DNA from: Crocinitomicaceae bacterium
Lineage (GTDB): Bacteria > Bacteroidota > Bacteroidia > Flavobacteriales_D > Crocinitomicaceae
Direction: 5' to 3'
NCBI GenBank assembly: GCA_024643365.1
Contig: JAHENC010000018.1
Location: 62,001-126,000 of the forward strand
DNA: 64,000 nucleotides
Shown here: one piece after another, positions 12,139-62,100 of the stretch
Position numbering within the stretch: position 1 is the first letter of the stretch
Layout: every line of letters starts with the position of its first letter
Translations under genes and position numbers: made by a program
The notes under the pieces: generated by a model
The model's input: only the letters and a program-made list of their open reading frames with translations
Told to the model about the DNA's origin: nothing
The model's database searches: none

Positions 12139-13110
12139 ATGAATCCAATGGAATATTTACTGAGCACGACTTCTAAGAACTTCGAGGAACGTGCTTTGGC
12201 ATTATTTCAGTACCAATATCAAAACGTGGCTGTTTATCGTTCGTATGTGGATCTTATCCATCGGAACAATCCAAAATCGTTGAATGATATTCCATTTCTT
12301 CCGATTTCCTTTTTCAAAACGGCACGCATTGTGGATGAGTTGTCCATGGAAAATGATCTTCATTTTCAAAGCAGTGGAACAGGTAATTCTGGGAGAAGTC
12401 AACATTTCGTGAAAAACAAACGGTGGTACGATGATTCCTTCACATCTGGATTCAAGCATTTCTTTGGTCCAGTTGAGGAATATGTGGTACTCGCTTTGTT
12501 GCCAAATTATATTGATCAAGGTGATTCATCGCTCGTGTATATGGTCAATGCACTCATACAACAATCCGGACAAGCACTTTCAGGATTCTTGTTGCATGAA
12601 CCATCTTCACTTATTCAGCGATATCAAGCAGCTGTTTCTCAAGGTAAAAAAGTCATCATTTTTGGTGTTTCCTATGCTTTGCTCGATTTGGCCGAATTGA
12701 AAATTGATTTATCCGAAGCTATCATCATAGAAACTGGTGGAATGAAAGGCCGCCGAAAGGAATTGACGAAAGCTGAATTACACGCCGCACTCATACACGG
12801 ACTTGGTGTTGATCACGTGAGATCAGAATATGGTATGACAGAATTACTATCCCAAGGCTATTCGATGAAGGACGGTAAATTTCAAGTTGTTCCTTGGATG
12901 AAAATTCTCATTCGTGACCCGTATGATCCATTCACACTTTTTCCAAATGAACGATCTGGTGGAATCAATGTCATCGATTTAGCGAATCAGCATAGTTGTG
13001 CATTTATCCAAACGCAAGATTTAGGAAGGATAGAAGGTGATGGGTTTTATTTAGAGGGACGCTTTGACGAAGCAGATGTTCGTGGTTGTAATCTTCTCGT
13101 TGATCAATAA
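12139..13110 (+). CDS. LuxE-like acyl-protein synthetase / adenylate-forming enzyme
   Basis: A 323-aa protein of the LuxE / coenzyme F390 synthetase-related group (ANL-type adenylating fold). The phosphate-binding segment is FQSSGTGNSGRSQHF and the acceptor motif is SEYGMTELLSQGYS. LuxE activates fatty acids as acyl-AMP and transfers them to a Cys. Here there are no luxC or luxD neighbours, so bioluminescence is not implied. Members in Bacteroidota probably activate an unknown carboxylate. The start may be the ATG at 12139 or at 12148 (MEYLLSTTSKN). A TAnnTTTG element just upstream favours a very short leader. It is followed after 20 nt by the TauE-type gene. Confidence 0.8.
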   Translation: MNPMEYLLSTTSKNFEERALALFQYQYQNVAVYRSYVDLIHRNNPKSLNDIPFLPISFFKTARIVDELSMENDLHFQSSGTGNSGRSQHFVKNKRWYDDSFTSGFKHFFGPVEEYVVLALLPNYIDQGDSSLVYMVNALIQQSGQALSGFLLHEPSSLIQRYQAAVSQGKKVIIFGVSYALLDLAELKIDLSEAIIIETGGMKGRRKELTKAELHAALIHGLGVDHVRSEYGMTELLSQGYSMKDGKFQVVPWMKILIRDPYDPFTLFPNERSGGINVIDLANQHSCAFIQTQDLGRIEGDGFYLEGRFDEADVRGCNLLVDQ

Positions 13111-13121
13111 GCTATTTTTGA

Positions 13122-13129
13122 TATCTTTG
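13122..13129 (+). promoter_or_regulatory. Candidate -7 element for tauE-like gene
   Basis: TATCTTTG ends one base before the ATG at 13131; a second match, TATTTTTG, is at 13113-13120. If 13122-13129 is used, the ATG at 13137 is the better start. Confidence 0.3.
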
Positions 13130-13130
13130 A

Positions 13131-13532
13131 ATGGAAATGACACCACAAACAATCCTTATCCTAGCCATCATTGGTATCTTCGCTGGAGTACTCAGTGGAT
13201 TCGTTGGAGTAGGAGGTGGGGTCATCATTGTTCCAGCCTTGGTTTTTTTTCTAGGAATTTCCCAACATACAGCCCAAGGAACAAGTCTTTTTGTGCTTTC
13301 CATGCCTGTCGTACTGTTTGCAGTGATCAATTACTGGAAGTCTGGGAATGTTGAATGGAAATATGGGCTTGTTATCGCAGCAACCTTTCTTATTGGTGCC
13401 TATATTGGATCCAAATTATCCTTGAAACTTTCACCCGGAATGGTAAAATTAATTTTTGGTGTTTTTCTAGCCTATGTATCTTTTCGTTTAATCTTGTCCG
13501 GTTATACATCTATTTCATCCAATGAATCCTGA
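13131..13532 (+). CDS. Half-size TauE/SafE family membrane protein
   Basis: A 133-aa integral membrane protein with four predicted helices. It carries the TauE signature GIFAGVLSGFVGVGGGVIIVP at residues ~16-36 and the loop ISQHTAQGTSLFVLSMPV. TauE/SafE proteins are sulfite or organosulfonate exporters of ~250 aa with two repeats; this is one repeat, so it may work as a homodimer (inference). There is no frameshift or leftover second half downstream, so it is not a visible truncation. It overlaps the M20 gene by 11 nt, suggesting coupling. The start could be Met1 or Met3 (13137). Confidence 0.85.
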   Translation: MEMTPQTILILAIIGIFAGVLSGFVGVGGGVIIVPALVFFLGISQHTAQGTSLFVLSMPVVLFAVINYWKSGNVEWKYGLVIAATFLIGAYIGSKLSLKLSPGMVKLIFGVFLAYVSFRLILSGYTSISSNES

Positions 13533-44161: not shown

Positions 44162-45276
<1,115 letters not shown>

Positions 45277-45315: not shown

Positions 45316-45783
45316 ATGTTGATTTTGGAAAAGGACGAGTTTTGGTTGTCATGGTGCAGGGAGGAATTAACCCTTGGTAGAACTGTTCGCATTGTTGCGT
45401 CAGGTTACAGCATGATTCCAAGCGTTTGGCCAGGTGAATCAATTGAAATTGAACCTGTGGTCATTGAAAATGTTAAAATTGGAGATATTATTGCATTTCA
45501 ACGAATTCAACATATGGTGGTACATCGAGTTGTTATGATTCAGAACCTCAATGACGAATCATACATTACCACTATGGGAGATTCCAATTTAAGGGTGGAT
45601 GAAGTCATTAACAACGCAAACTATATCGGAAAGGTTCAGGTAAAAAACAATACCCCAGTTCAAAGCGGTCAACCTTTGTTAATCAAGAGAAGTTTTTATT
45701 CTGTAGTCGCATTCTTTTTCACCTATTCTAATGCTTTGAAAAAAAGAGTGTTGCACTTGTTTTTCGGCGAAAAGCGTCATTGA
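45316..45783 (+). CDS. SipW-like S26 (signal peptidase I / S24-S26) protein
   Basis: A 155-aa serine peptidase-like protein with the Ser32 box ASGYSMIPSVWPGESIEI, HMVVHRVV (His71, the SipW/ER-type replacement of Lys) and TMGDSN (Asp90). Unlike true signal peptidases it has no N-terminal membrane helix; only a mildly hydrophobic C-terminal stretch. I start at the ATG at 45316 rather than the TTG at 45292. It is tail-to-tail with the NTP_transf_5 gene. Related small S24/S26 proteins often sit beside PqqD/HPr-kinase-like sets, where they may trim a leader peptide (inference). Confidence 0.78.
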   Translation: MLILEKDEFWLSWCREELTLGRTVRIVASGYSMIPSVWPGESIEIEPVVIENVKIGDIIAFQRIQHMVVHRVVMIQNLNDESYITTMGDSNLRVDEVINNANYIGKVQVKNNTPVQSGQPLLIKRSFYSVVAFFFTYSNALKKRVLHLFFGEKRH

Positions 45784-45844
45784 ATGTCATTTTAACAAAG
45801 ACATTACAACACCTTTGAATGAGTTCATTCCGCACAATCAACAC

Positions 45845-46987
45845 TCAATCGTTGGATCTTGCGAAATATTTAAGTCTTTTCATCCATGCCATCGCATAAT
45901 GACTGTTTGGATTGCTTTTGTTGAGGTATTTTTTTGATGGGAATACTTCAAAAAATATCAGAGGCACTATTTTCCACGAAAATGAATATGGAACTAATCT
46001 GGGGAAAAATTTGAAACGGATGAGTTGAGTCACCGTTGGTTTTTGTTCCTTTAAAAAGAACTGAATATAGAAATAATACCTTTTCGGTGCTTTTTTTCTA
46101 CTAGGCAAATAATCCTCATTCAATAATCCCATCCATATCATACAATCGATTACTTGCTCGATTTTTGTCTGAACAATTTTGTCAAAATTATTTTTGTTTT
46201 TCGGATAATCCAATGCAGGCAAGGTAAAGAATACATCTAAAAATGAACTCATTTTAAAGTGATTACCCTTATCCAAATGCACATATAAATGTAAGATGTT
46301 GAAAAGAGCTGAATCAGATTTTTGAAGAACCCACGTTTCTTGTTCTTGACAACTTATTTTTTCTCGTCGGGAAATCAGTTGTTCAGTAGGAAAATGGAAT
46401 CCCAACAAGGTATCATAAAGCATGATGTGGACATCGATATTCATTCCATTTTTACTTGCTTGTAAAGGCGCATGTAATTGAAAATGTTTTTCGTGGAAGT
46501 TAGACTTGTCGACGCTTTGCGAACATAAAAAGCCCATTTCTTCAAAAAGTAATTTAACCTTATCTAAGTGTTCTGGAAGGATCAAGATGTCGATATCCGA
46601 AATGTGTCGAACTCCAAGTTCTCTATACGTTCGAAAAATGAGATCCATGCCCTTTAATACACTGAATGGAATCTGATGATCATCCAACATCTTACTCATT
46701 TGTTGATGTAAAGTCAAAAAATGGGTGTTGCTTTGGAGGATTTGAACATACTTGATTTGGAGAGATTTCCAAAGATTTACATCAAATCCACTGAGTTTAT
46801 TATTTAAAAAAAACCAGTAGGCAAAACCTGAGAGATGACTTAACTGTGCTTTTTCGGTGAATGTATCCCAGTCAATTTTGTCTTTGTGTTCAAGAAACTC
46901 CGGATAATGAAGCGTTGGATTAAAATAGGAAGAACTCCATTTTATTAGAAATCTATCCGTTTGCGAAAGATAGTTATTGAATTTCAT
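45845..46987 (-). CDS. Nucleotidyltransferase family protein (NTP_transf_5)
   Basis: A 380-aa protein with the PF14907-type core: SVLKGMDLIFRTYRELGVRHISDIDILILPEHL, where Lys112-Gly and Asp131-x-Asp133 form the Pol-beta-like nucleotidyltransferase site, plus a later DVHIMLYDTLLG (third acidic residue) and helical C-terminus. It is expected to transfer a nucleotide to, or act with, a peptide or metabolite in RiPP-like loci. The start is the ATG at 46987 (MKFNNYLSQTDRF), overlapping the HPr-kinase-like gene by 14 nt; the ORF extension to 47041 is rejected. Confidence 0.85.
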   Translation of the reverse strand: MKFNNYLSQTDRFLIKWSSSYFNPTLHYPEFLEHKDKIDWDTFTEKAQLSHLSGFAYWFFLNNKLSGFDVNLWKSLQIKYVQILQSNTHFLTLHQQMSKMLDDHQIPFSVLKGMDLIFRTYRELGVRHISDIDILILPEHLDKVKLLFEEMGFLCSQSVDKSNFHEKHFQLHAPLQASKNGMNIDVHIMLYDTLLGFHFPTEQLISRREKISCQEQETWVLQKSDSALFNILHLYVHLDKGNHFKMSSFLDVFFTLPALDYPKNKNNFDKIVQTKIEQVIDCMIWMGLLNEDYLPSRKKAPKRYYFYIQFFLKEQKPTVTQLIRFKFFPRLVPYSFSWKIVPLIFFEVFPSKKYLNKSNPNSHYAMAWMKRLKYFARSND

Positions 46988-47855
46988 GACCTCTGATAAA
47001 TCCACAAATTTCAGCGTCTGGATAAACACCCAAAGAAGCAACAGGACATTTTTTTATAATTCTTTCCATCACGTTAATGTGGTGTAAAATTGCATTTTTA
47101 TCATATCCGTGTTGTATACAGAAAGCAAGTGTCTTGGCTAGTCGTTGTGCACCGGAAAGAGCTTTAAAGGAATTTTCCTTTGAGTGAAATGGTAAGTAAA
47201 TATAGTTTAATGAAGTTGCTTTAGAACTATCCGAATAAGGCATTGGTGTATTATACATCATGACATCACCATTTTTCATCACCCTCAAAATAAGTCGGTC
47301 GTCATTTATGATTTGAGATCCTTGCTTGTTCCAAATGCTAGCCAAGGTACTTTTTCCAACACCACTGAATCCAGAGAAAATACGACCGATTCCTTGGTCA
47401 GTAATACCGGAGGCATGAATCATGATGATGTCTTCCTCGGTACTTAAATAATACCAAACAAGTGGTGCCATCGGATAAGCTAATGGGTTTATTACAGTTT
47501 CGTTTTTACCTGTAATAATTGGCAAACAATAAATATCCCAGGTTTTTTTCTTTGAAGAATATGTGGCCCTTTGTTGTATTTCAAATGTTATGGGATTAAA
47601 AACCTCCACAATAATAGCACTGTCTACTTCATAAACCTTCCATAATACATTGTTTTCCTGCTTTGCTTCGTAGATTAACTTAGCAATACTTGGTAAATCA
47701 ATGAGGAAATCATGTATGTTTATGATTCGATCATTGTTAGTTTCATTTTCATGAAAGAAATCTTCGAAACCTTCTTCAAGTAAAATTGGCAATTCACTTT
47801 TTGAAAACAAACCAAAATTGAAGTCTGCAAGTTTTATTCGGCCAATAAAGTTCAT
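46974..47855 (-). CDS. HPr kinase-like protein
   Basis: A 293-aa P-loop protein. The C-terminal half resembles HPr kinase/phosphorylase: IIMIHASGI (His147), P-loop SGFSGVGKST (Lys168), and INDDRL (Asp185/Asp186) downstream. The N-terminal ~120 residues lack the HPrK substrate domain. Homologues in lasso-peptide clusters (such as the paeninodin kinase) phosphorylate the precursor Ser; here the target is unknown. Stop overlaps the NTP_transf_5 start and its start overlaps the PqqD stop by 4 nt. Confidence 0.85.
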   Translation of the reverse strand: MNFIGRIKLADFNFGLFSKSELPILLEEGFEDFFHENETNNDRIINIHDFLIDLPSIAKLIYEAKQENNVLWKVYEVDSAIIVEVFNPITFEIQQRATYSSKKKTWDIYCLPIITGKNETVINPLAYPMAPLVWYYLSTEEDIIMIHASGITDQGIGRIFSGFSGVGKSTLASIWNKQGSQIINDDRLILRVMKNGDVMMYNTPMPYSDSSKATSLNYIYLPFHSKENSFKALSGAQRLAKTLAFCIQHGYDKNAILHHINVMERIIKKCPVASLGVYPDAEICGFIRGHEIQ

Positions 47856-48139
47856 TTTATCAGCATAAAATGATGTAATTCATTTAGATAGGATTTGATA
47901 TCCTCCTGAATAGCATCCTCATTAGAGTCAAATTCCGTACAAACTTTCGAAGATAATGACTTCAAATCATCCGTTGAATCAAGATTTTCCCAAATGAATG
48001 CAGCAACATCGTTTAAGGTAAGGTATTGATTGAAATCAACTACGTTGTCCTTTAAGGGTATTAACAATAATTCATCTCCTGTATTTCTACTGATGAATTT
48101 ATTTTTATTCTGGAAAATATCTGAAATAATCTGATTCAT
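47852..48139 (-). CDS. PqqD family protein (RiPP recognition element)
   Basis: A 95-aa PqqD-type winged helix. KFISRNTGDELLLIPL is the beta-hairpin start and LNDVAAFIWENLDSTDDLKSL is the central helix pair typical of PqqD. PqqD folds bind leader peptides in RiPP biosynthesis. First gene of the PqqD / HPr-kinase-like / NTP_transf_5 operon. TAATTTTG (48151-48144) ends 4 nt before the ATG. The ~200 bp to the next gene hold no precursor larger than 16 codons on either strand. Confidence 0.87.
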   Translation of the reverse strand: MNQIISDIFQNKNKFISRNTGDELLLIPLKDNVVDFNQYLTLNDVAAFIWENLDSTDDLKSLSSKVCTEFDSNEDAIQEDIKSYLNELHHFMLIK

Positions 48140-48343: not shown

Positions 48344-51300
48344 ATGATGAAAACACAGTGCTACTTGAAGCCGACCCACTTTACTTTTATTAACAGGTTA
48401 AAATACATTCGATTTTGGAGTCTGTTCCTTTTGATTTTTCTTTTCGGTTCAACACAGGCTCAAACAACAATAGCTGAATGGAATTTTAGTTCAAGTAATA
48501 CCGTGCCAAGTATAGGTGCTGGTACAGCATCTGTTTATGGAAATCTAAGTCAATCTTTTCCAACATCATCTTATGGAAAGTGCTGGCAACTTAGTAATTT
48601 CCCCAATCAATCCTCTCAAAACGGAACGCGAGGAGTTGGCTTCAATGTCAGCACGGTTGGATATACGAATGTTCAAGTGAACTTCGAACAACGAGCGTCT
48701 GGATCAGCATCTAGATGGGCTCAGGTAGATTATTCAATTGATGGCGGATCCAATTGGATTTTGGCCTACTGGAATAACAATGGCGCAATCATACCAAAAG
48801 ATTCTTGGGTAGCTTTTTCAGTCGATTTCACAAATGTTACTGGTGTTGCGAATAATGCGAATTTCAAAGTGCGCATTGTTTCTGTATTTTGTCCATTGGC
48901 TTTCGATGAATCAACAAATGCCGTACCTTTCTCTGCAAATTCCGCCTATATGATCGCGGAATCTAGTGCGGTGTATTCACCAAGCACAAGCACAAATAAC
49001 AACAATTATTCATCAAACGGAACATGGCGCTTTGATAATATTTCTGTAAAAGGGGTTTCAATCCCTGTAATCAACGCAATAAACTTAAATAGTTCGATGA
49101 CCGCAGTGTACGGAAGTCCATCAAACGCAATTCCTATAACGCTTTCTGCATCGAATGTAATTGCAGGAATTTCCGCAACACCATCATCCGGATTTGAACT
49201 TTCGACTAGTTCTTCAAGTGGCTTTGCCTCAACACCTCTATTAAATTTAAGCAACGGTAGCATCATATACGTCCGGACAATCTTTAATAAATCAGTAGGG
49301 ACATTTAATGGGGTTCCGTGTGTGCTTTTACAAAGTAATGGGGCGGTAAATAAAAATGTCACCACTAAAAGTAACGGGAATCAAATAACCACGAAGTCCT
49401 TAAGTATTTCAGCGGATGATACATACAAGGAAATGGGACAAATTTTGGCTTCCGGAGCTGGTAATACTTCTTTTACATCGATTGGTTTAATTTCATGCGA
49501 CACGATTTCTTCAGTAAATGTTACTTATGGACTTGCTGGAGAGGGTACAGGGGTAGGTTCCATTGTTGGGGAATATCCAAATCAAGTAATCCCATCATTG
49601 CCAATTGGCACAACATTTAACAGTTCAAATTACATGATTTCATATGTCAATGGGACAATTTTCGTAACTGGATTTACACCTGGAAACATTATTGTTAATC
49701 GCATTGGTGATGGTTCTTCTGCCCTCGGGTCGGCCACCTATCCTTTGAACTTAATTGAGTTTATACCGACTGGATCAGCTTTTCAAACGATGAATCAACA
49801 GTTCTCAAACGCCAATTTATTAACTGAAACAGGGGAGCAAGTCGCTTCCAATGGACATTTAAACTCTTCAAACGGGTTTATAGGTATTCCAGGCTATAAT
49901 GCTGTTCCTGGCACACCAAATGTGGCTAGCGCTCAACCGAAAGCAACCAATATCTTAGGGCTAGGTGCTTCGGTTAACGGACGTGTCGTCTTTCCAATTA
50001 CTGGTACAGGGATTCCATTTGTGGAAGGTTTCCTCACAAGTTTACTGCCACTTAATGCTACTACTTTTTACGTCGCTGGAACTGGAATCAATAATTCTGG
50101 TGGAATTTGGTATTACAATGGCAGTAATTTCATTCAATTGAATGGTGAATTCAATGCCATTCGAACAATCGAGGAGTACAATGGAAATCTTTATTTCTCT
50201 TCGGATGCAAATCCTGCAGGAATTTATCAAATGGGAACAGGTTTACCCACGACTACCGGTCAATCTGCAACTTTGGTGATTTCAACCACTTCTCCAAAGG
50301 GATTCGCCATTAGTCCAGATGGAATTTTCGCTTACATAGCGGATGATAGTCCAATTAATGGAAATAATGGTGGGGGTATTCAAAAATGGATCAAACAAAA
50401 TGGTACATGGTCAAAACAGTACACACACGAATACCGCGTGAAAGGTTTGATAGTTGATTTTTCTGATTCAATTGCTCAAATATTTGGAACTACTTGTTTA
50501 AGTAGTCCAGGTTCGGATAATAATAAAATCATTAAAATTTCGGATGTGAGTTCTGTAGTTATTCCAATTGATTTAGCAATCGCCGGTACAAATTATATTT
50601 TCAAAGGATTAGATTTTGCACCAGCCTTACCGCCAAATGCTCCTCAAATTGTCCAAGTCGAACAACCAACATGCACACAGTCCACTGGAAAAATACATTT
50701 TACAGGATTGCCAGCTGGACAATGGCGCATAACGGGGAATCCAAGTGGAAGTAAAACGGGTACAGGAACAACAGCTTTTGTAGAGAATTTATCGCCTGGA
50801 CAGAGTTATACCTTTAAAGTAACGAGTTTCACAGGTCGTAATTCGATTTGGACGAGCGCAGAATCAATTGATGCTCAACCTGAAATCCCAACGATTCCAA
50901 CGGGTTCAGCTACGCAAAAAAGATGTCAGGGTTCAACAATAAGTGAATTGAATTTGAACCAAAGCAATTTACTTTGGTATGAAAGTGCCATTTCAACAAT
51001 TCCTCTGAATTCATGGAGTCCTTTAATTCATAACAATCATTATTATGCTGCTCAATCGAATGTCAATGGTTGTGAAAGTAATGATCGTTGCGATGTTGTC
51101 GCAAAATTGGTCAATAATGGGGAATGGAAAGGTGATGATAATGGTAGCTGGAAAAATCAAACAAATTGGTGTGGTGGTGTTCCACAGACAGGCGCGTCTG
51201 TCATTATACCTGAATTGACAATAATTCACTTGGATACACTTGCGGAATTAACTGGCTTGAATATACAAAATATGGGTGTTTTACATATTTCGGATGCTAA

Positions 51301-52714
51301 AAAGTTAACCATTAACGGAGATTTAATAATGAATGGAGAATTGAGGTTACATGATAAATCTACGATTGTCCAAATTGAAAATAGTACATGGTCGGGAAAT
51401 GGTAATGTCTTTCTGCAACAGGCAATTACTGGAACAGGTGGTACTACTCCAAGCGGAAGGTTATGGTTTGTTGTAAGTCCAATGGGCAATTCAGTGAGTC
51501 AAGCTTACAAAGCGGAAACGTCGGCTGTACTAAAGTACTTTAATGAACCAACTGGTTCTTGGGTTGAAATAAATAATTCCTCTACACCAATTGAAATTGG
51601 TAAAGGATACTTCGTTCAAACAGGGGTAATGGATACCTTGGTTTTTTCCGGAGGAAATCTAAACAACGGAAACTATACGATTCCATGTACACGAACTGGT
51701 AATACTAATTCTTATCGAGGATTTAATTTAATCTCCAATCCATATGCATCCTACGTTGACTTTAATGCGGTAACGAAAACAAACATCCTTCCAACAATGT
51801 GGTATCGAACAGCTGATTTAACCCAAACAATGGTTTTCGATACCTACAACAGTGAGTTGGGAATCGGTACGAGTTTGGGTGGAGAAACGGTAACTCAGTT
51901 TATTCCTCCCATGCAATCATTTTGGGTGAAAATTCCTTTTGGATTCTCAACAGGTGCGGTTGGTTTTTCCAATGCTATGAGAAGTCATTATTCCAATGGA
52001 TTTGAAGGATTGAAATCTAGTTTGAATGATTTTCCTGTCTACGTTCGGTTGAACTTACTCGATCAGGATAAGAAGGATCAGCTAATTGTATACATGGATC
52101 ATCATGTGAGTAATGAATTCGATCAAATGGATTCAGAAAAAATGATTGTTGCAGGATATCCACAAGTCTATACAAATGTTGGTCCGGCCAAATTAGTCAT
52201 TGATGGGTTGTTATTCACACATGCACATACAACTGTTCCCCTTAGCTTGAATATTCCAACAGCAAAATCATATGTGTTTCAGGCAGAAGAAATAACGCAT
52301 GAACAATCTGGGATTGTTTTAGAAGATAAGTTGTTGCGTGTATTCCAAGATCTCTCAGAGGACCCAAGTTATACTTTTTACACGGTAAATGGCATCATAT
52401 CAAATCGTTTCGTGCTCCATTTTAATTTTTCTAATGGAAATAACGGCACACTAATGACCTCCGAAGGCACGAATGAAGAGGATGCTGTTTTAGTCTTTTC
52501 AACTAGTAATGATGGTATTCATTTATCAATAAACGAAGTATTGGATGCCCCTTTTGAACTTGAGGTAATTGATGCGATGGGACGCTTGGTGAAGACGGTT
52601 CTTATCACCGATCAAGAATCCGTCATTGGACTTCAAGCAGGTTCTGGATTTTATTTTCTTCAATTCAATTGGAAAAATGAAATCGTAAGAAAAAAGGTAT
52701 TCGTTAACAACTAA
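48344..52714 (+). CDS. Large secreted protein with T9SS type A sorting domain
   Basis: A 1456-aa exported protein. A long signal peptide has its hydrophobic core at residues ~25-37 (WSLFLLIFLFGSTQAQ). The N-terminal region (TTIAEWNF...) resembles cell-surface jelly-roll domains. The middle has Ser/Thr-rich Ig-like or MBG-like segments and a propeller-like part (NNSGGIWYYNG, GFAISPDGIFAYIADD). Residues ~910-1250 include a right-handed beta domain (GEWKGDDNGSWKNQTNWCGG). The C-terminal ~80 residues (IDAMGRLVKTVL, FYFLQFNWKNEIVRKKVFV) are a type A sorting domain for secretion by the Por system. Divergent from the PqqD operon. Confidence 0.9.
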   Translation: MMKTQCYLKPTHFTFINRLKYIRFWSLFLLIFLFGSTQAQTTIAEWNFSSSNTVPSIGAGTASVYGNLSQSFPTSSYGKCWQLSNFPNQSSQNGTRGVGFNVSTVGYTNVQVNFEQRASGSASRWAQVDYSIDGGSNWILAYWNNNGAIIPKDSWVAFSVDFTNVTGVANNANFKVRIVSVFCPLAFDESTNAVPFSANSAYMIAESSAVYSPSTSTNNNNYSSNGTWRFDNISVKGVSIPVINAINLNSSMTAVYGSPSNAIPITLSASNVIAGISATPSSGFELSTSSSSGFASTPLLNLSNGSIIYVRTIFNKSVGTFNGVPCVLLQSNGAVNKNVTTKSNGNQITTKSLSISADDTYKEMGQILASGAGNTSFTSIGLISCDTISSVNVTYGLAGEGTGVGSIVGEYPNQVIPSLPIGTTFNSSNYMISYVNGTIFVTGFTPGNIIVNRIGDGSSALGSATYPLNLIEFIPTGSAFQTMNQQFSNANLLTETGEQVASNGHLNSSNGFIGIPGYNAVPGTPNVASAQPKATNILGLGASVNGRVVFPITGTGIPFVEGFLTSLLPLNATTFYVAGTGINNSGGIWYYNGSNFIQLNGEFNAIRTIEEYNGNLYFSSDANPAGIYQMGTGLPTTTGQSATLVISTTSPKGFAISPDGIFAYIADDSPINGNNGGGIQKWIKQNGTWSKQYTHEYRVKGLIVDFSDSIAQIFGTTCLSSPGSDNNKIIKISDVSSVVIPIDLAIAGTNYIFKGLDFAPALPPNAPQIVQVEQPTCTQSTGKIHFTGLPAGQWRITGNPSGSKTGTGTTAFVENLSPGQSYTFKVTSFTGRNSIWTSAESIDAQPEIPTIPTGSATQKRCQGSTISELNLNQSNLLWYESAISTIPLNSWSPLIHNNHYYAAQSNVNGCESNDRCDVVAKLVNNGEWKGDDNGSWKNQTNWCGGVPQTGASVIIPELTIIHLDTLAELTGLNIQNMGVLHISDAKKLTINGDLIMNGELRLHDKSTIVQIENSTWSGNGNVFLQQAITGTGGTTPSGRLWFVVSPMGNSVSQAYKAETSAVLKYFNEPTGSWVEINNSSTPIEIGKGYFVQTGVMDTLVFSGGNLNNGNYTIPCTRTGNTNSYRGFNLISNPYASYVDFNAVTKTNILPTMWYRTADLTQTMVFDTYNSELGIGTSLGGETVTQFIPPMQSFWVKIPFGFSTGAVGFSNAMRSHYSNGFEGLKSSLNDFPVYVRLNLLDQDKKDQLIVYMDHHVSNEFDQMDSEKMIVAGYPQVYTNVGPAKLVIDGLLFTHAHTTVPLSLNIPTAKSYVFQAEEITHEQSGIVLEDKLLRVFQDLSEDPSYTFYTVNGIISNRFVLHFNFSNGNNGTLMTSEGTNEEDAVLVFSTSNDGIHLSINEVLDAPFELEVIDAMGRLVKTVLITDQESVIGLQAGSGFYFLQFNWKNEIVRKKVFVNN

Positions 52715-52723
52715 TCAAAACAT

Positions 52724-52891
52724 ATGAAACTCTACAAAAAACAAGGTGACTTAAAAAGTAAGCGAAGGGAATATCATGTACCCAAGGTACAAAGTACTTT
52801 GATAGATCACGAAATTTCTTTGGTAATGATGTCTGAAAGTGGGACGCCGCCAATTGAATTTAGTATTCATTTATCAAGACGTTTATCCTAG
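52724..52891 (+). CDS. Small ORF, 55 aa, unknown
   Basis: ATG 9 nt after the T9SS cargo stop, ending in TAG just before the shared terminator, so it would be the second gene of that transcript. The product is basic at its N-terminus (MKLYKKQGDLKSKRREYHVP) and ends SIHLSRRLS, with no signal peptide or membrane segment. I do not recognise it. Support comes only from position, the open frame and the terminator placement; it may be real or chance. Confidence 0.4.
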   Translation: MKLYKKQGDLKSKRREYHVPKVQSTLIDHEISLVMMSESGTPPIEFSIHLSRRLS

Positions 52892-52894
52892 CTT

Positions 52895-52931
52895 AAAAAA
52901 AAAGCCCCGGCAATCTGTCGGGGCTTTTTTT
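52895..52931. terminator. Bidirectional terminator between the cargo/ORF55 and PorP/SprF genes
   Basis: A-run, GCCCCGGC stem with a G-T pair, 5-nt loop, CGGGGC, T7. Confidence 0.87.
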
Positions 52932-53943
52932 ATTTTAATCTTCCTCTGTGATTCATTTTCTTGTAGTAGAGTAGGGACTTGAAGTAAATTTCAACAGCAC
53001 CTACACTGCTCGTTGCTTGACTCAATCTCGAGTAGTTTGCATCGAAAGCCAAACCAAATTTGATGGCTTTAATTTTCATTCCAACTGTTGCAACTACAGC
53101 ATCGTTGTGACGGTAGTAAACACCGTATGTTACGTTGTTGGATTTGTTAATGTTTGTGATTTCCGAACCTTCTTTAATTGTATGTTCAAAAGAAACACCT
53201 GCTGTAAAATTGTACGTTGGTCCTGTTCGGAAGTAAATCAGACTTGGTTGAACGTGGAAATCTCTTCTCTTCGTTGTGATATCAGCTCCAGCTTGGACAA
53301 CCATGTTCATGTACATTTTATCACCACCAAATGAGAACGCAATTTTTTGACGAGTTAAGTGGTTTAATGCATAACCTGCATAAAACGTAGATTTGTTTCT
53401 AGTCGTATGTTGGTAATATAAACCTGTACCTAAGTCAATCGTTGCATATGAACTGTTTAAACTTAATTCCGTGTTCGGAGAAGAAAAGAATCCAATTCCA
53501 TTCCATTCGTTTTCCCATGTTTGGTTTCCACGATTAACGCTTTGTTGGTAGAATCCAGGAGAAAGTCCAACAGAGAATTTATTGTTACGATCCAATGCAA
53601 TGGTATAGTTAAACGGAATAGATACACTTGTCGTCATTAAGCTTGCATCTCCAGTTTGGTCATTCACTGCTGCAATTCCTACACCAAAGCTATTTCTTCC
53701 CATTACTCCGTCACGAATTTTAAATTCCGCATTGAGGGTATTGGTTCTCATTCCTGCCTCAGGAACTGTTAACCATTGTGAACGGTAGTTAGTAAAGATG
53801 CTGTAGTCTTCCGCACCGGTTGCTACTGCTGCTGGATTATACAATACCTGTGATTGATACCAAGCACTGATGTTTTTATCTTGTTGAGCACTTGCTTGTA
53901 AAAAACACAAAGCAGTTGCCGAAAAAAGGATCATTCTTTTCAT
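52930..53943 (-). CDS. PorP/SprF family T9SS outer-membrane protein
   Basis: A 337-aa outer-membrane beta-barrel with a signal peptide (LFSATALCFLQASAQ) and the hallmark N-terminal region ISAWYQSQVLYNPAAVATGAEDYSIFTNYRSQWL. The PorP/SprF family is required for secretion or surface anchoring of particular T9SS cargo, often the one encoded next door with a type B CTD. It follows the 53949-54905 gene by 5 nt on the same strand. Many paralogues exist in one genome; this is one of them. Confidence 0.93.
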   Translation of the reverse strand: MKRMILFSATALCFLQASAQQDKNISAWYQSQVLYNPAAVATGAEDYSIFTNYRSQWLTVPEAGMRTNTLNAEFKIRDGVMGRNSFGVGIAAVNDQTGDASLMTTSVSIPFNYTIALDRNNKFSVGLSPGFYQQSVNRGNQTWENEWNGIGFFSSPNTELSLNSSYATIDLGTGLYYQHTTRNKSTFYAGYALNHLTRQKIAFSFGGDKMYMNMVVQAGADITTKRRDFHVQPSLIYFRTGPTYNFTAGVSFEHTIKEGSEITNINKSNNVTYGVYYRHNDAVVATVGMKIKAIKFGLAFDANYSRLSQATSSVGAVEIYFKSLLYYKKMNHRGRLK

Positions 53944-59146: not shown

Positions 59147-62100
59147 ATGAGAATTCTTATTTCTCTTTTTATTTCCATTCTATTTATTGAACAATTTACG
59201 GCGCAAACCTTTCCAAAGGAACGGGATAAATTTGTCAAAGAATGGCAGAAGTTGGTGTTAGATGAGGGAGCGGTTCCATTTTTAAAGGATGAACTTCCTC
59301 AGAAAATTAAAGGAAGTTTATTGAATGAAACACAATTTCACCGCCTCGTTGATAATTGCAACAAATTTGCTCAGAAGGAAATCCCACTGTATCCAGAGAT
59401 TTATCAGTACATGATTGCTAGTATTTATCAAATTGAAAATAAATTTCCAGGTGAATTGGTTAATCCATGGTTTAATTACGTCAACGATTATGCAAAAGAA
59501 CCGGGGGAGGAGCTATCGAAATTTCTGAAATTCTCAGCGAACTTTTTTCGATATCAGTCATTTTACCGCGAGCCATCCTATCGCTGGACCTATGCAAAAG
59601 GTCAAATTTCATGGGAGGAAGGGAAAACCCTGAAAATTAAGGCAACAGGAATAGACTTGAAGTGTTTGAAATATGATGATGACAGAAAATTGGAGGATTC
59701 CGTTGTCGTGTATGAAACCAGTGGGTATTTCGATATTCTTCAAAACAAATGGCAGGGTTCGAAAGGAATGGTTACTTGGGAAAAAGTACAATTTTCTAAA
59801 AACGAGACTTTTGCAAAGCTACGAGGGTACAAATGTGATTTCGCTACGGCTAAACTAAAAGTGGATACGGTAGAATTGACTACTCCATACTTTACCACTC
59901 CGATTCTAGGAAAATTGCAAGATATAACTACCTTAGATTTAGGTGAAGGAGAGAAATCACCACAATTTAATTCCTATGAAAAGCGATTGAAAATTCCCAA
60001 CTTGAGGGATCAAATGGACTATGATGGTGGATTTACTTTGGAAGGGCCCGATTTCATCGGTCGCGGAACGGCAGAAAAACCGGCTAAAATCATTTTCAAG
60101 CGTCAAAATGTACCCCTATTTGAAATTAGTTCGATTTATTTCGAGATGAATCCACAGCAAGTCATTGCGCGCAATGCGAAGGCGAAGATGCATTATAAAT
60201 CAGGTGATTCACTGATCATTCAATCGTGTTTCTTCACCTTGAATGAACAGAACAAAGAAATTAGCATCAACTCGGTGAAAAAAGGCTATGAATATTTGCC
60301 GTTTATCGATTCATATTTCAAATTGTATGTCTATGCGCCTGTTTTGAGTTGGAAATTTGGTACACCAGATCCTTATTATACCTTCGAAGTGGGAACGGCT
60401 CAAGAACAAAAAATGGCAAGTTTCCAGTCCATGAATTACTTCGATCCTGCCATCTTTCAAAAGTTTCAAAGCATTGGAACCGCTCATCCATTCGCTCAAA
60501 TAGCGGCTTTAGTGAAAAAAACGTCTAAAATGGAGTTTACTGAAGGTGAGGTTGCTTCTGCTATGAAGAAGACAATTGATCAAGTTAAACCCTTATTGGT
60601 TGACATGGCATCGTATGGTTTTTTGATGATTGATACAGATGTTAAAAAGGTGAAAATTTCACCGAAGTTAATCGCGTATGCTGAGGCAAGTACGGGAGAG
60701 AGTGACTATGACAATATCAAAATCCAAGCTGATTTACGACCGCAAACGATGCAAGAGTCCAAAGAGCAAATTGCAGCGGATCCTTATTTGAAAGAGGTCG
60801 CAGCAAGAATGAATGCTCAGAATAAATCAAAAAGAGCCACCATTGCCTATGCGTCGATACAGTTGGATAAAAATGAAATGCGATTGAACCAAGTTGATCA
60901 AGTAGCTTTATCAGATGCACAGCAGACTTTTGTCTATCCTGATTCTATGTATGTAACCATGTACAAAAACAGGGATATGAGTTTTCATGGATATGTAGTG
61001 GCGGGAAAAATGGAATTTTTCACCAAATTTTCCAAATTCGATTACGAAGCATTTAAAATTAACTTACTATCTACGGAGGAAGCAACGTTGAGAGTCAATC
61101 CTTTGAAAAAGGAGGACGGAACCGAACGGATATTAATGTTTAGTTCGTTTAAAAACATCAAAGGTGAGTTGTTAATTGATGACGTGGAATCAAAATCAGG
61201 AAGAAAAGGAAACAACGCACAATATCCTATTTTGAAGTCAATAGGAGAGGCAAAAGTCTATTACAGCTCCAAAGAAATTCTTAAGGGAGCATATGATAGT
61301 ACACGTTTTTACTATGCTGTTAATCCCTTCGATCTTGATAGTTTGGATGACTTTTCAGAAGCAAGTTTGCGTTTTGAGGGTAGCTTGAATTCTGCCGGAA
61401 TTTTCCCAAGTATCCCTGAGCCTTTAAAAATCATGAATGATTATTCTTTTGGTTTCGTTGCCCAAGCTCCGGAGGATGGGTATCCATTTTATGAAACGGA
61501 TACGAAGTATCAAAATAAAATCGTGCTCTCTAATAATGGTCTTCAAGGGACCGGAACAATTAATTTCTTACAATCTATTTCCATTTCCAAAAAGTTAACA
61601 TTCTTGCCTGATTCAACAATTGGCTTGGCTATTTTCGATAATAAGGAAGTTGGAGCAGGTGTAAGGTATCCAGTGGTACATTCCGAACAGGCTTTGATTT
61701 CCTATCAACCAAGAAAGGCCTTGATGAAAGTTTCTAGTTACGGGGAGAATCCATTAATCATGTTTAAGGACAATGTGGTGATGAACGGAACGTTATTGTT
61801 GGACAAAAAAGGAATGACGGGTAATGGAATACTCGAATTTAAAGAAGCGAGTTTAAACTCAAAGGAATACACATTTACAAACGAAGACATTTTATCAGAA
61901 AATTCCTCGTTCAGTTTGCGTAACCGTTTTAGTCAATATGGTGAGAATCCGTTAGCGATTCAGTCTGATGAAATGAAGACGAATATCAGTTTTAAAACAC
62001 GTATAGGTGAATTCAATTCAAATGGAACAAAGCGAATCATGTTCCCTGCAAATCATTATTATTGTCAAATGGATAAATTCACTTGGTTGATGGATGGTGA

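Follow-up and report, generated by a model that had tools for sequence, protein, structure and literature searches.

Organization of the locus

The 64,000-nt stretch of DNA analysed here (the window: positions 62,001 to 126,000 of the forward strand of contig JAHENC010000018.1, assembly GCA_024643365.1, Crocinitomicaceae bacterium) carries a cassette of putative peptide-modifying enzymes, a short gene for their likely precursor peptide, and a gene for a large protein secreted by the type IX secretion system (T9SS). All coordinates are positions within the window (Table 1). Three minus-strand genes, encoding a PqqD-type protein, an HPrK-like kinase and an NTP_transf_5 nucleotidyltransferase, overlap by 4 and 14 nt, and the gene of an S26 signal-peptidase-like protein is convergent to them. 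Our analysis confirmed this arrangement, which a first-pass annotation of the region 45316..48139 had described. The same annotation regarded the genes as an orphan set with no precursor in the window. The precursor gene lies outside that region, 9 nt after the stop codon of the T9SS gene and 4.6 kb from the PqqD gene, and we identified 58 related kinase loci, almost all of them in records of Bacteroidota.

The gene set of the window is an insert at a single site. The flanking PorP/SprF and PALP genes are arranged tail to tail in the genus, which we sampled with 61 genomes. The gap between them is only 5–56 bp in 30 of these genomes, none of which has the kinase or the precursor, whereas 3.1–7.7 kb separate the two genes in the five kinase-positive genomes that carry them on a single contig. 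The gap is unreadable in the remaining 26 genomes (contig ends or no close flank). The S26 and T9SS genes share the PorP/SprF-PALP interval, in an order that varies between genomes, and one genome (G015) has the cassette at the insertion site without an adjoining T9SS gene.

Table 1. Features of the cassette and its borders (window coordinates)
Feature	Position	Strand	Basis or remark
PALP enzyme, left border	44341..45276	+	flank kept at insertion site
S26B (Sec11/SipW/archaeal type) signal-peptidase-like protein, proposed leader peptidase	45292 (TTG) or 45316 (ATG) to 45783	+	TIGR02228
NTP_transf_5 nucleotidyltransferase	45845..46987 (ATG 46987; TTG 47041 possible)	-	PF14907, 2.1e-26; proposed phosphoserine extension
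HPrK/PEPCK-fold kinase, proposed peptide kinase	46974..47855	-	HPrK N-terminal domain undetected
PqqD-type protein, proposed leader-binding RiPP recognition element	47852..48139	-	PF05402, 1.2e-12
T9SS secreted protein, 1456 aa: signal-peptide-like N-terminus, C-terminal module of ~550 aa, type A sorting domain	48344..52714	+	hydrophobic N-terminus; TIGR04183
Precursor peptide, 55 aa: leader Y17-x-x-P20, D28, EIS32, S37, short C-terminal part	52724..52891	+	HMM match, 3.1e-10
Intrinsic terminator closing the T9SS-precursor unit	52897..52931	+	16-pair stem and T run
PorP/SprF protein, right border	52930..53943	-	flank kept at insertion site

Precursor peptide

The precursor family was found by comparing short open reading frames (ORFs) around the kinase in the window locus and the 58 related loci. 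Members were detected at 25 loci by BLAST linkage and in 34 of the 58 neighbourhoods with a hidden Markov model (HMM). The window copy was matched by an HMM built from 17 seeds that did not include it.

In an alignment of 22 precursors, Y17, P20 and D28 are invariant and an EIS/T motif is present, with Ser or Thr at residue 32 in every sequence. S37 is found in 21 sequences, and a Pro follows it closely in 21, where the window copy has Gly. Residue 22 is Val or Ile in 20 of the 22 (Phe and Leu in the others), and the leader is of the YxxPxL type. With Y17 set as −17, the Pro falls at −14, the Val/Ile at −12 and the Ser/Thr at −2, which is the register of lasso peptide leaders: in these, YxxPxL spans −17 to −12 and the penultimate Thr is conserved (PMC10368454). 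No conserved acid is present at residues 40–42 of the 22 aligned sequences, the lasso spacing being assumed for the cut site.

The dN/dS ratio is 0.03–0.44 in 43 of 46 related precursor pairs, indicating purifying selection, with three pairs saturated, many dS values above 1 and the window copy in no pair. The family is large: 2986 clusters match it in the database at E≤1e-3. Pfam domains are absent from all 120 clusters listed, and those with a name are nearly all called "hypothetical protein". Searches of the window's genome gave three matches to the precursor, of which one is at a contig edge, and one to the kinase; its only match to PF05402 is the window PqqD.

Pairing of the precursor with a T9SS protein

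The tie between the peptide and the T9SS protein is genetic. We collected 62 distinct precursors, 8 at contig edges and 54 with upstream DNA. A same-strand gene ends less than 400 nt upstream of 49 of the 54, and 48 of these 49 upstream partners, the window's included, carry a type A sorting domain of the T9SS at their C-terminus (TIGR04183, E≤0.01; PF18962 in 42). The precursor thus lies directly behind a T9SS gene in 48 of 54 cases. The 49th partner, at locus L031, is an S26 protein that matches TIGR02228 instead; the other exceptions are a second L031 copy and four tandem copies at L034. The four L034 ORFs (12992-13452, minus strand) are precursor-like, 26–38 aa long, and end almost right after the leader, with no T9SS gene ahead of them.

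The precursor and T9SS genes of the window are probably co-transcribed as 48344-52891. The predicted terminator that closes this unit is one of five such sites in the region, a total not above that in shuffled sequences (5.3). The C-terminal module of the T9SS protein gave a poor structure model (mean predicted local distance difference score, pLDDT, 62.8). Two T9SS partners scanned in genomes G193 and G105 differ from each other in their domains, one having HYDIN-like Ig repeats and the other a subtilase domain plus HYDIN. Two T9SS-module genes (L080:58-1863 and L144:2143-4083 (G011)) are broken by stops or frame breaks; G011 has a precursor and no kinase match.

Co-occurrence across genomes

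The kinase was found in 11 of the 61 genus genomes, the precursor in 16, S26 in 8 and the T9SS module in 15. The precursor is present in 10 of the 11 kinase-positive genomes versus 6 of the 50 kinase-negative ones (P=8.7e-7), and all 15 genomes with the T9SS module are precursor-positive (P=2e-13); the genomes are related, and both P values overstate their independence. In the 11th kinase-positive genome (G074), the contig ends inside the kinase. S26 is found in 8 of the 11 kinase-positive genomes versus none of the 50 others. Seen from the T9SS side, 17 of the 20 T9SS-module genes with room downstream are followed by a precursor.

In a wider sample of 395 genomes from the phylum, precursor matches at E≤1e-3 were confined to three genomes: that of the window, and G105 and G193, which belong to one genus. 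The kinase exceeds 200 bits in exactly the same three genomes and reaches at most 81 bits in all others. This comparison covered the best first-look candidates per genome (at most 16 for the precursor and 6 for the kinase), and weak copies may have been missed. All four precursors of G105 and G193 lie behind a T9SS gene. In G193, whose genome is a single contig, 2.2 Mb separate the precursor from the kinase; therefore, the enzymes would serve their precursors in trans.

BLAST clustering of the 59 neighbourhoods (the window and the 58 related loci) recovered the kinase in 57, PqqD in 51, S26 in 48, relatives of the T9SS protein in 33 and NTP_transf_5 in 21. Outside the clustered families f0-f5, none is shared by more than 12 of the 59. 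Of the 182 other neighbour proteins, 138 were scanned with Pfam. They matched 185 families, and neither a lasso cyclase nor a B2 protease is among the 25 most frequent, which take in every family matched by at least three proteins; rare cases and genome-wide copies fall outside this scope. Sugar-nucleotide families (RmlD, Epimerase) account for 7 of the 138 scanned proteins, all from loci L019-L075, and are possibly relevant to a hexose on the peptide.

Several relatives are of separate interest. Loci L042 and L061 come from metagenome-assembled genomes labelled Alphaproteobacteria and Chlorobiota, which may reflect errors in binning or labelling, or transfer. Three loci contain more distant kinases. 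L137 (contig 227 of G400) encodes four radical SAM proteins (two with SPASM), PqqD, S26, two HPrK-like kinases, an NTP_transf_5-like protein, a methyltransferase and an ATP-binding cassette (ABC) exporter. L138 and L140 have S26, PqqD, NTP_transf_5, ABC and HPrK-like kinase genes beside glycosyltransferase, Poly_export and chain-length genes, as in a polysaccharide-type locus; L140 was annotated by Pfam, and L138 appears alike by our own HMMs only.

PqqD, kinase and nucleotidyltransferase

The relatives of the window PqqD among sequences in the PDB include a PqqD family protein and TbiB1. In lasso clusters, the PqqD-like B1 protein binds the leader and stimulates the kinase, as described for BsfB1 and BsfK (PMC10368454). 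The motif residues of the window kinase equal those of BsfK.

The kinase had been described as carrying HPrK motifs and lacking the HPrK N-terminal domain; the motifs were confirmed, and no such domain was detected. The catalytic His, P-loop and Asp-Asp residues (H147, G162, G165, G167, K168, S169, D185 and D186) are invariant in 46 of 46 sequences. The protein scores below all curated cut-offs listed: it reaches 17.4 bits for the HPr kinase family TIGR00679 (cut-off 240), 25 and 38 bits for TIGR04352 and TIGR04355 (cut-off 200; 1.2e-9 for TIGR04355), and 9e-4 for Hpr_kinase_C. HPrK is the sole family reached in a profile search of the PDB (0.017). In fold searches PEPCK leads the matches and HPrK ranks second by Foldseek with a low TM score; HPrK is absent among the 50 VIA fold matches listed, which carries no weight against it. 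PF27840 is precomputed on many homologues of the kinase, and a local Pfam scan of the window protein did not return it.

The nucleotidyltransferase scores well above the family cut-off (PF14907, 93.4 versus 31.2 bits), and the two Asp residues of its DxD motif (D149 and D151, numbered from the TTG start) are kept in 20 of 20 sequences. PsmN, which is annotated as a nucleotidyltransferase, is needed for the addition of a hexose to the Ser phosphorylated by PsmK (PMC9266682).

S26 peptidase and its fusion to an ABC exporter

The window S26 protein (163 aa from the TTG start or 155 aa from the ATG) scores above the cut-off of TIGR02228 (58.5 versus 51.85 bits), and a profile from 15 of its relatives matches SEC11A/C at 1e-12. 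The Ser/His dyad noted at first pass, together with a GD motif, is invariant in all 19 lone and all 27 fused domains. No membrane anchor is seen in the window protein by a crude hydropathy scan, where its best 19-residue segment scores 1.09; the best segment of L071 scores 2.58 in the same scan.

The S26 domain forms the N-terminus of an ABC exporter of ~745 aa in 27 relatives, mostly labelled Bacteroidales (e.g. L030:1716-3956, L048:1606-3843, plus 25 more). At L070 and L071, S26 and the ABC exporter are encoded by adjacent genes. The N-terminus of the L030 protein, the one fusion of the 27 scanned with Pfam, matches Peptidase_S24 (25.5 versus 23.3 bits) and shows no C39. A database search with the first 160 residues of a fusion returned nothing, which is probably a limit of word sharing. 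Since S26 is built into an exporter in these 27 relatives, cutting and export would be coupled there, and by analogy the fusion appears to place S26 in leader removal and export.

Proposed function and alternative explanations

The cassette encodes a leader-binding domain and has a genetically linked precursor with a conserved leader, the hallmarks of ribosomally synthesized and post-translationally modified peptides (RiPPs), and it is a RiPP-like variant rather than a lasso cluster. We consider it likely that the cassette matures a small ribosomal peptide that works jointly with the T9SS protein of the preceding gene. We infer the chemistry as follows. PqqD would bind the leader (Y-x-x-P-x-V/I...) and present the peptide to the HPrK-like kinase, which would phosphorylate a conserved Ser, S37 and S32 being the candidates. 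NTP_transf_5, where present, may add a nucleotidyl or sugar group to the phosphate, in the way that PsmN follows PsmK. Leader removal would then fall to the S26 peptidase, in many Bacteroidales probably from within the ABC exporter. By analogy, the product would be a linear phosphopeptide, extended where the nucleotidyltransferase (N) is present and cut by S26, because the window combines B1, kinase (K) and N with a matching leader and has S26 in the place of B2. The earlier proposal of PqqD-guided phosphorylation or nucleotidylation followed by cleavage is well supported by the co-occurrence, by the catalytic residues kept throughout the alignments and by a precursor with a lasso-type leader; it had missed the precursor in the window and the tie to T9SS.

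Several observations weigh against this interpretation. Clustering placed NTP_transf_5 in only 21 of the 59 neighbourhoods, of which three are loci with the S26-ABC fusion, and its step is not universal. A recognisable precursor is missing from 24 of the 58 kinase neighbourhoods, where a search for divergent precursors by the Y..P pattern gave only three unconvincing ORFs. Conversely, 6 of the 16 precursor-positive genus genomes have no kinase; in five of them (G011, G016, G022, G032 and G069) the contig ends within ~0.15 kb of the T9SS gene, which is not the case in G083. The precursor is lacking downstream of 3 of the 20 genus T9SS-module genes that leave room for one. Residue 34, which would be the first of the core under lasso spacing, is variable (V9, Q6, F3 and A2 of 22). 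A hydrophobic segment follows the S26 domain in L030 and L071 and not in L048, and cutting may occur on either side of the membrane. No dedicated ABC exporter stands out in the genus when searched with the Bacteroidota ABC subunit of L071: all 61 genomes match, with a best score of 166 bits in G000 versus 216 in the kinase-negative G033.

The locus in G083 (L084) has a T9SS gene and precursor adjoining the PALP gene, and a kinase match is absent from the genome.

The same maturation could instead yield a free secreted signal or antimicrobial peptide, the T9SS protein being only a co-expressed partner such as a receptor, a protease or a self-protection factor. The differing domains of the G193 and G105 partners, which fix no single partner function, and the S26-ABC fusions, which point to peptide export, are consistent with this; the nearly universal pairing (48/54) and the confinement of the genus T9SS module to precursor-positive genomes (15/15) argue against it, and we regard it as rather unlikely. 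It is less likely still that the T9SS protein itself is the phosphorylated or nucleotidylated substrate, with the small ORF as its adaptor or chaperone. The T9SS gene and the cassette do share one insertion site in several genus genomes, but the small ORF has the leader spacing of a lasso precursor, the N-terminus of the T9SS protein resembles a signal peptide, the G015 cassette has no adjoining T9SS gene, and a protein larger than 700 aa would be unlikely to leave the cell through an S26-ABC exporter.

A lasso cluster with its cyclase and B2 protease encoded elsewhere in the genome would account for the resemblance of the B1, K, N and D-like parts, and of the leader spacing, to clusters such as bsf. 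We think this very unlikely: neither a cyclase nor a B2 family is recurrent in the neighbourhoods (no genome-wide search for a cyclase was made), the core would start with V, Q, F or A rather than Gly in 20 of the 22 sequences, and positions 7–9 have no conserved acid. Membership in a lasso cluster was rejected on the missing recurrence of cyclase and B2 and on a core without ring residues. That the small ORF is no substrate, and stands behind T9SS genes by chance or for a regulatory reason, seems hardly credible. Precursors without a kinase in six genomes could be read in this way, but codon-level purifying selection, the 2986 database clusters and the co-occurrence with the kinase speak against it.

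A T9SS-associated peptide substrate provides the gene set that had looked orphan with a testable substrate, and the precursor family of 2986 clusters with a likely role. We suggest tentatively that the cassette could represent a separate RiPP class: a phosphorylated, possibly glycosylated or nucleotidylated linear peptide, made by lasso-like B1-K-N enzymes in the absence of a cyclase, trimmed by an S26 peptidase that is in some cases part of the exporter, and paired one-to-one with T9SS surface proteins, perhaps becoming joined to these proteins or to their anchor.

Comparison with known systems

The cassette links RiPP maturation and type IX secretion, two fields that are unjoined in the literature searched: no work combining "type IX secretion" with "PqqD" or "lasso peptide" was found, most subscription papers lying outside the search. 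Term searches of the accessible text of a 2023 review of RiPP leader proteases (PMC10885120) returned neither "S26" nor "signal peptidase", and those of the accessible text of a Bacteroidales RiPP survey neither "S26" nor "nucleotidyltransferase"; no parallel to S26 was seen in the accessible part of the TMcin paper (PMC13252029).

The closest resemblance is to the kinase-containing lasso clusters of paeninodin, pseudomycoidin (psm) and Bradymonas (bsf). These likewise contain a PqqD-like B1, an HPrK-like kinase with the same His/Gly/Lys/Ser/Asp-Asp motif and a nucleotidyltransferase, and they share the YxxPx(aliphatic) leader, the Ser/Thr at −2 and an ABC exporter (found in many relatives of the cassette). 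Unlike them, the cassette has an S26 peptidase in the place of the protease, no recurring B2 or cyclase nearby and a core without ring residues, and its precursor lies behind a T9SS gene, sometimes far from the enzymes.

The HprK-related kinases A and B (TIGR04352, TIGR04355) are also HPrK-like proteins outside the HPr kinase family proper, and their systems hold a PqqD partner; the window kinase scores far below their cut-offs. SipW, archaeal signal peptidase I and Sec11 (S26B) share the Ser/His dyad, the GD motif and the sequence profile of the window S26 protein, which differs in having no membrane anchor seen and in its genetic linkage to PqqD, the kinase and the precursor. Like the peptidase-containing ABC transporters (PCAT/AMS, C39-ABC), the fused relatives combine an ABC exporter with a peptidase domain at its N-terminus and are linked to a leader peptide, but the peptidase is of the S26 (Ser/His) rather than the C39 type and the leader alignment shows no obvious double-Gly site. 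The S26-ABC fusion would thus be an exporter with an S26 leader peptidase, a counterpart of the PCATs.

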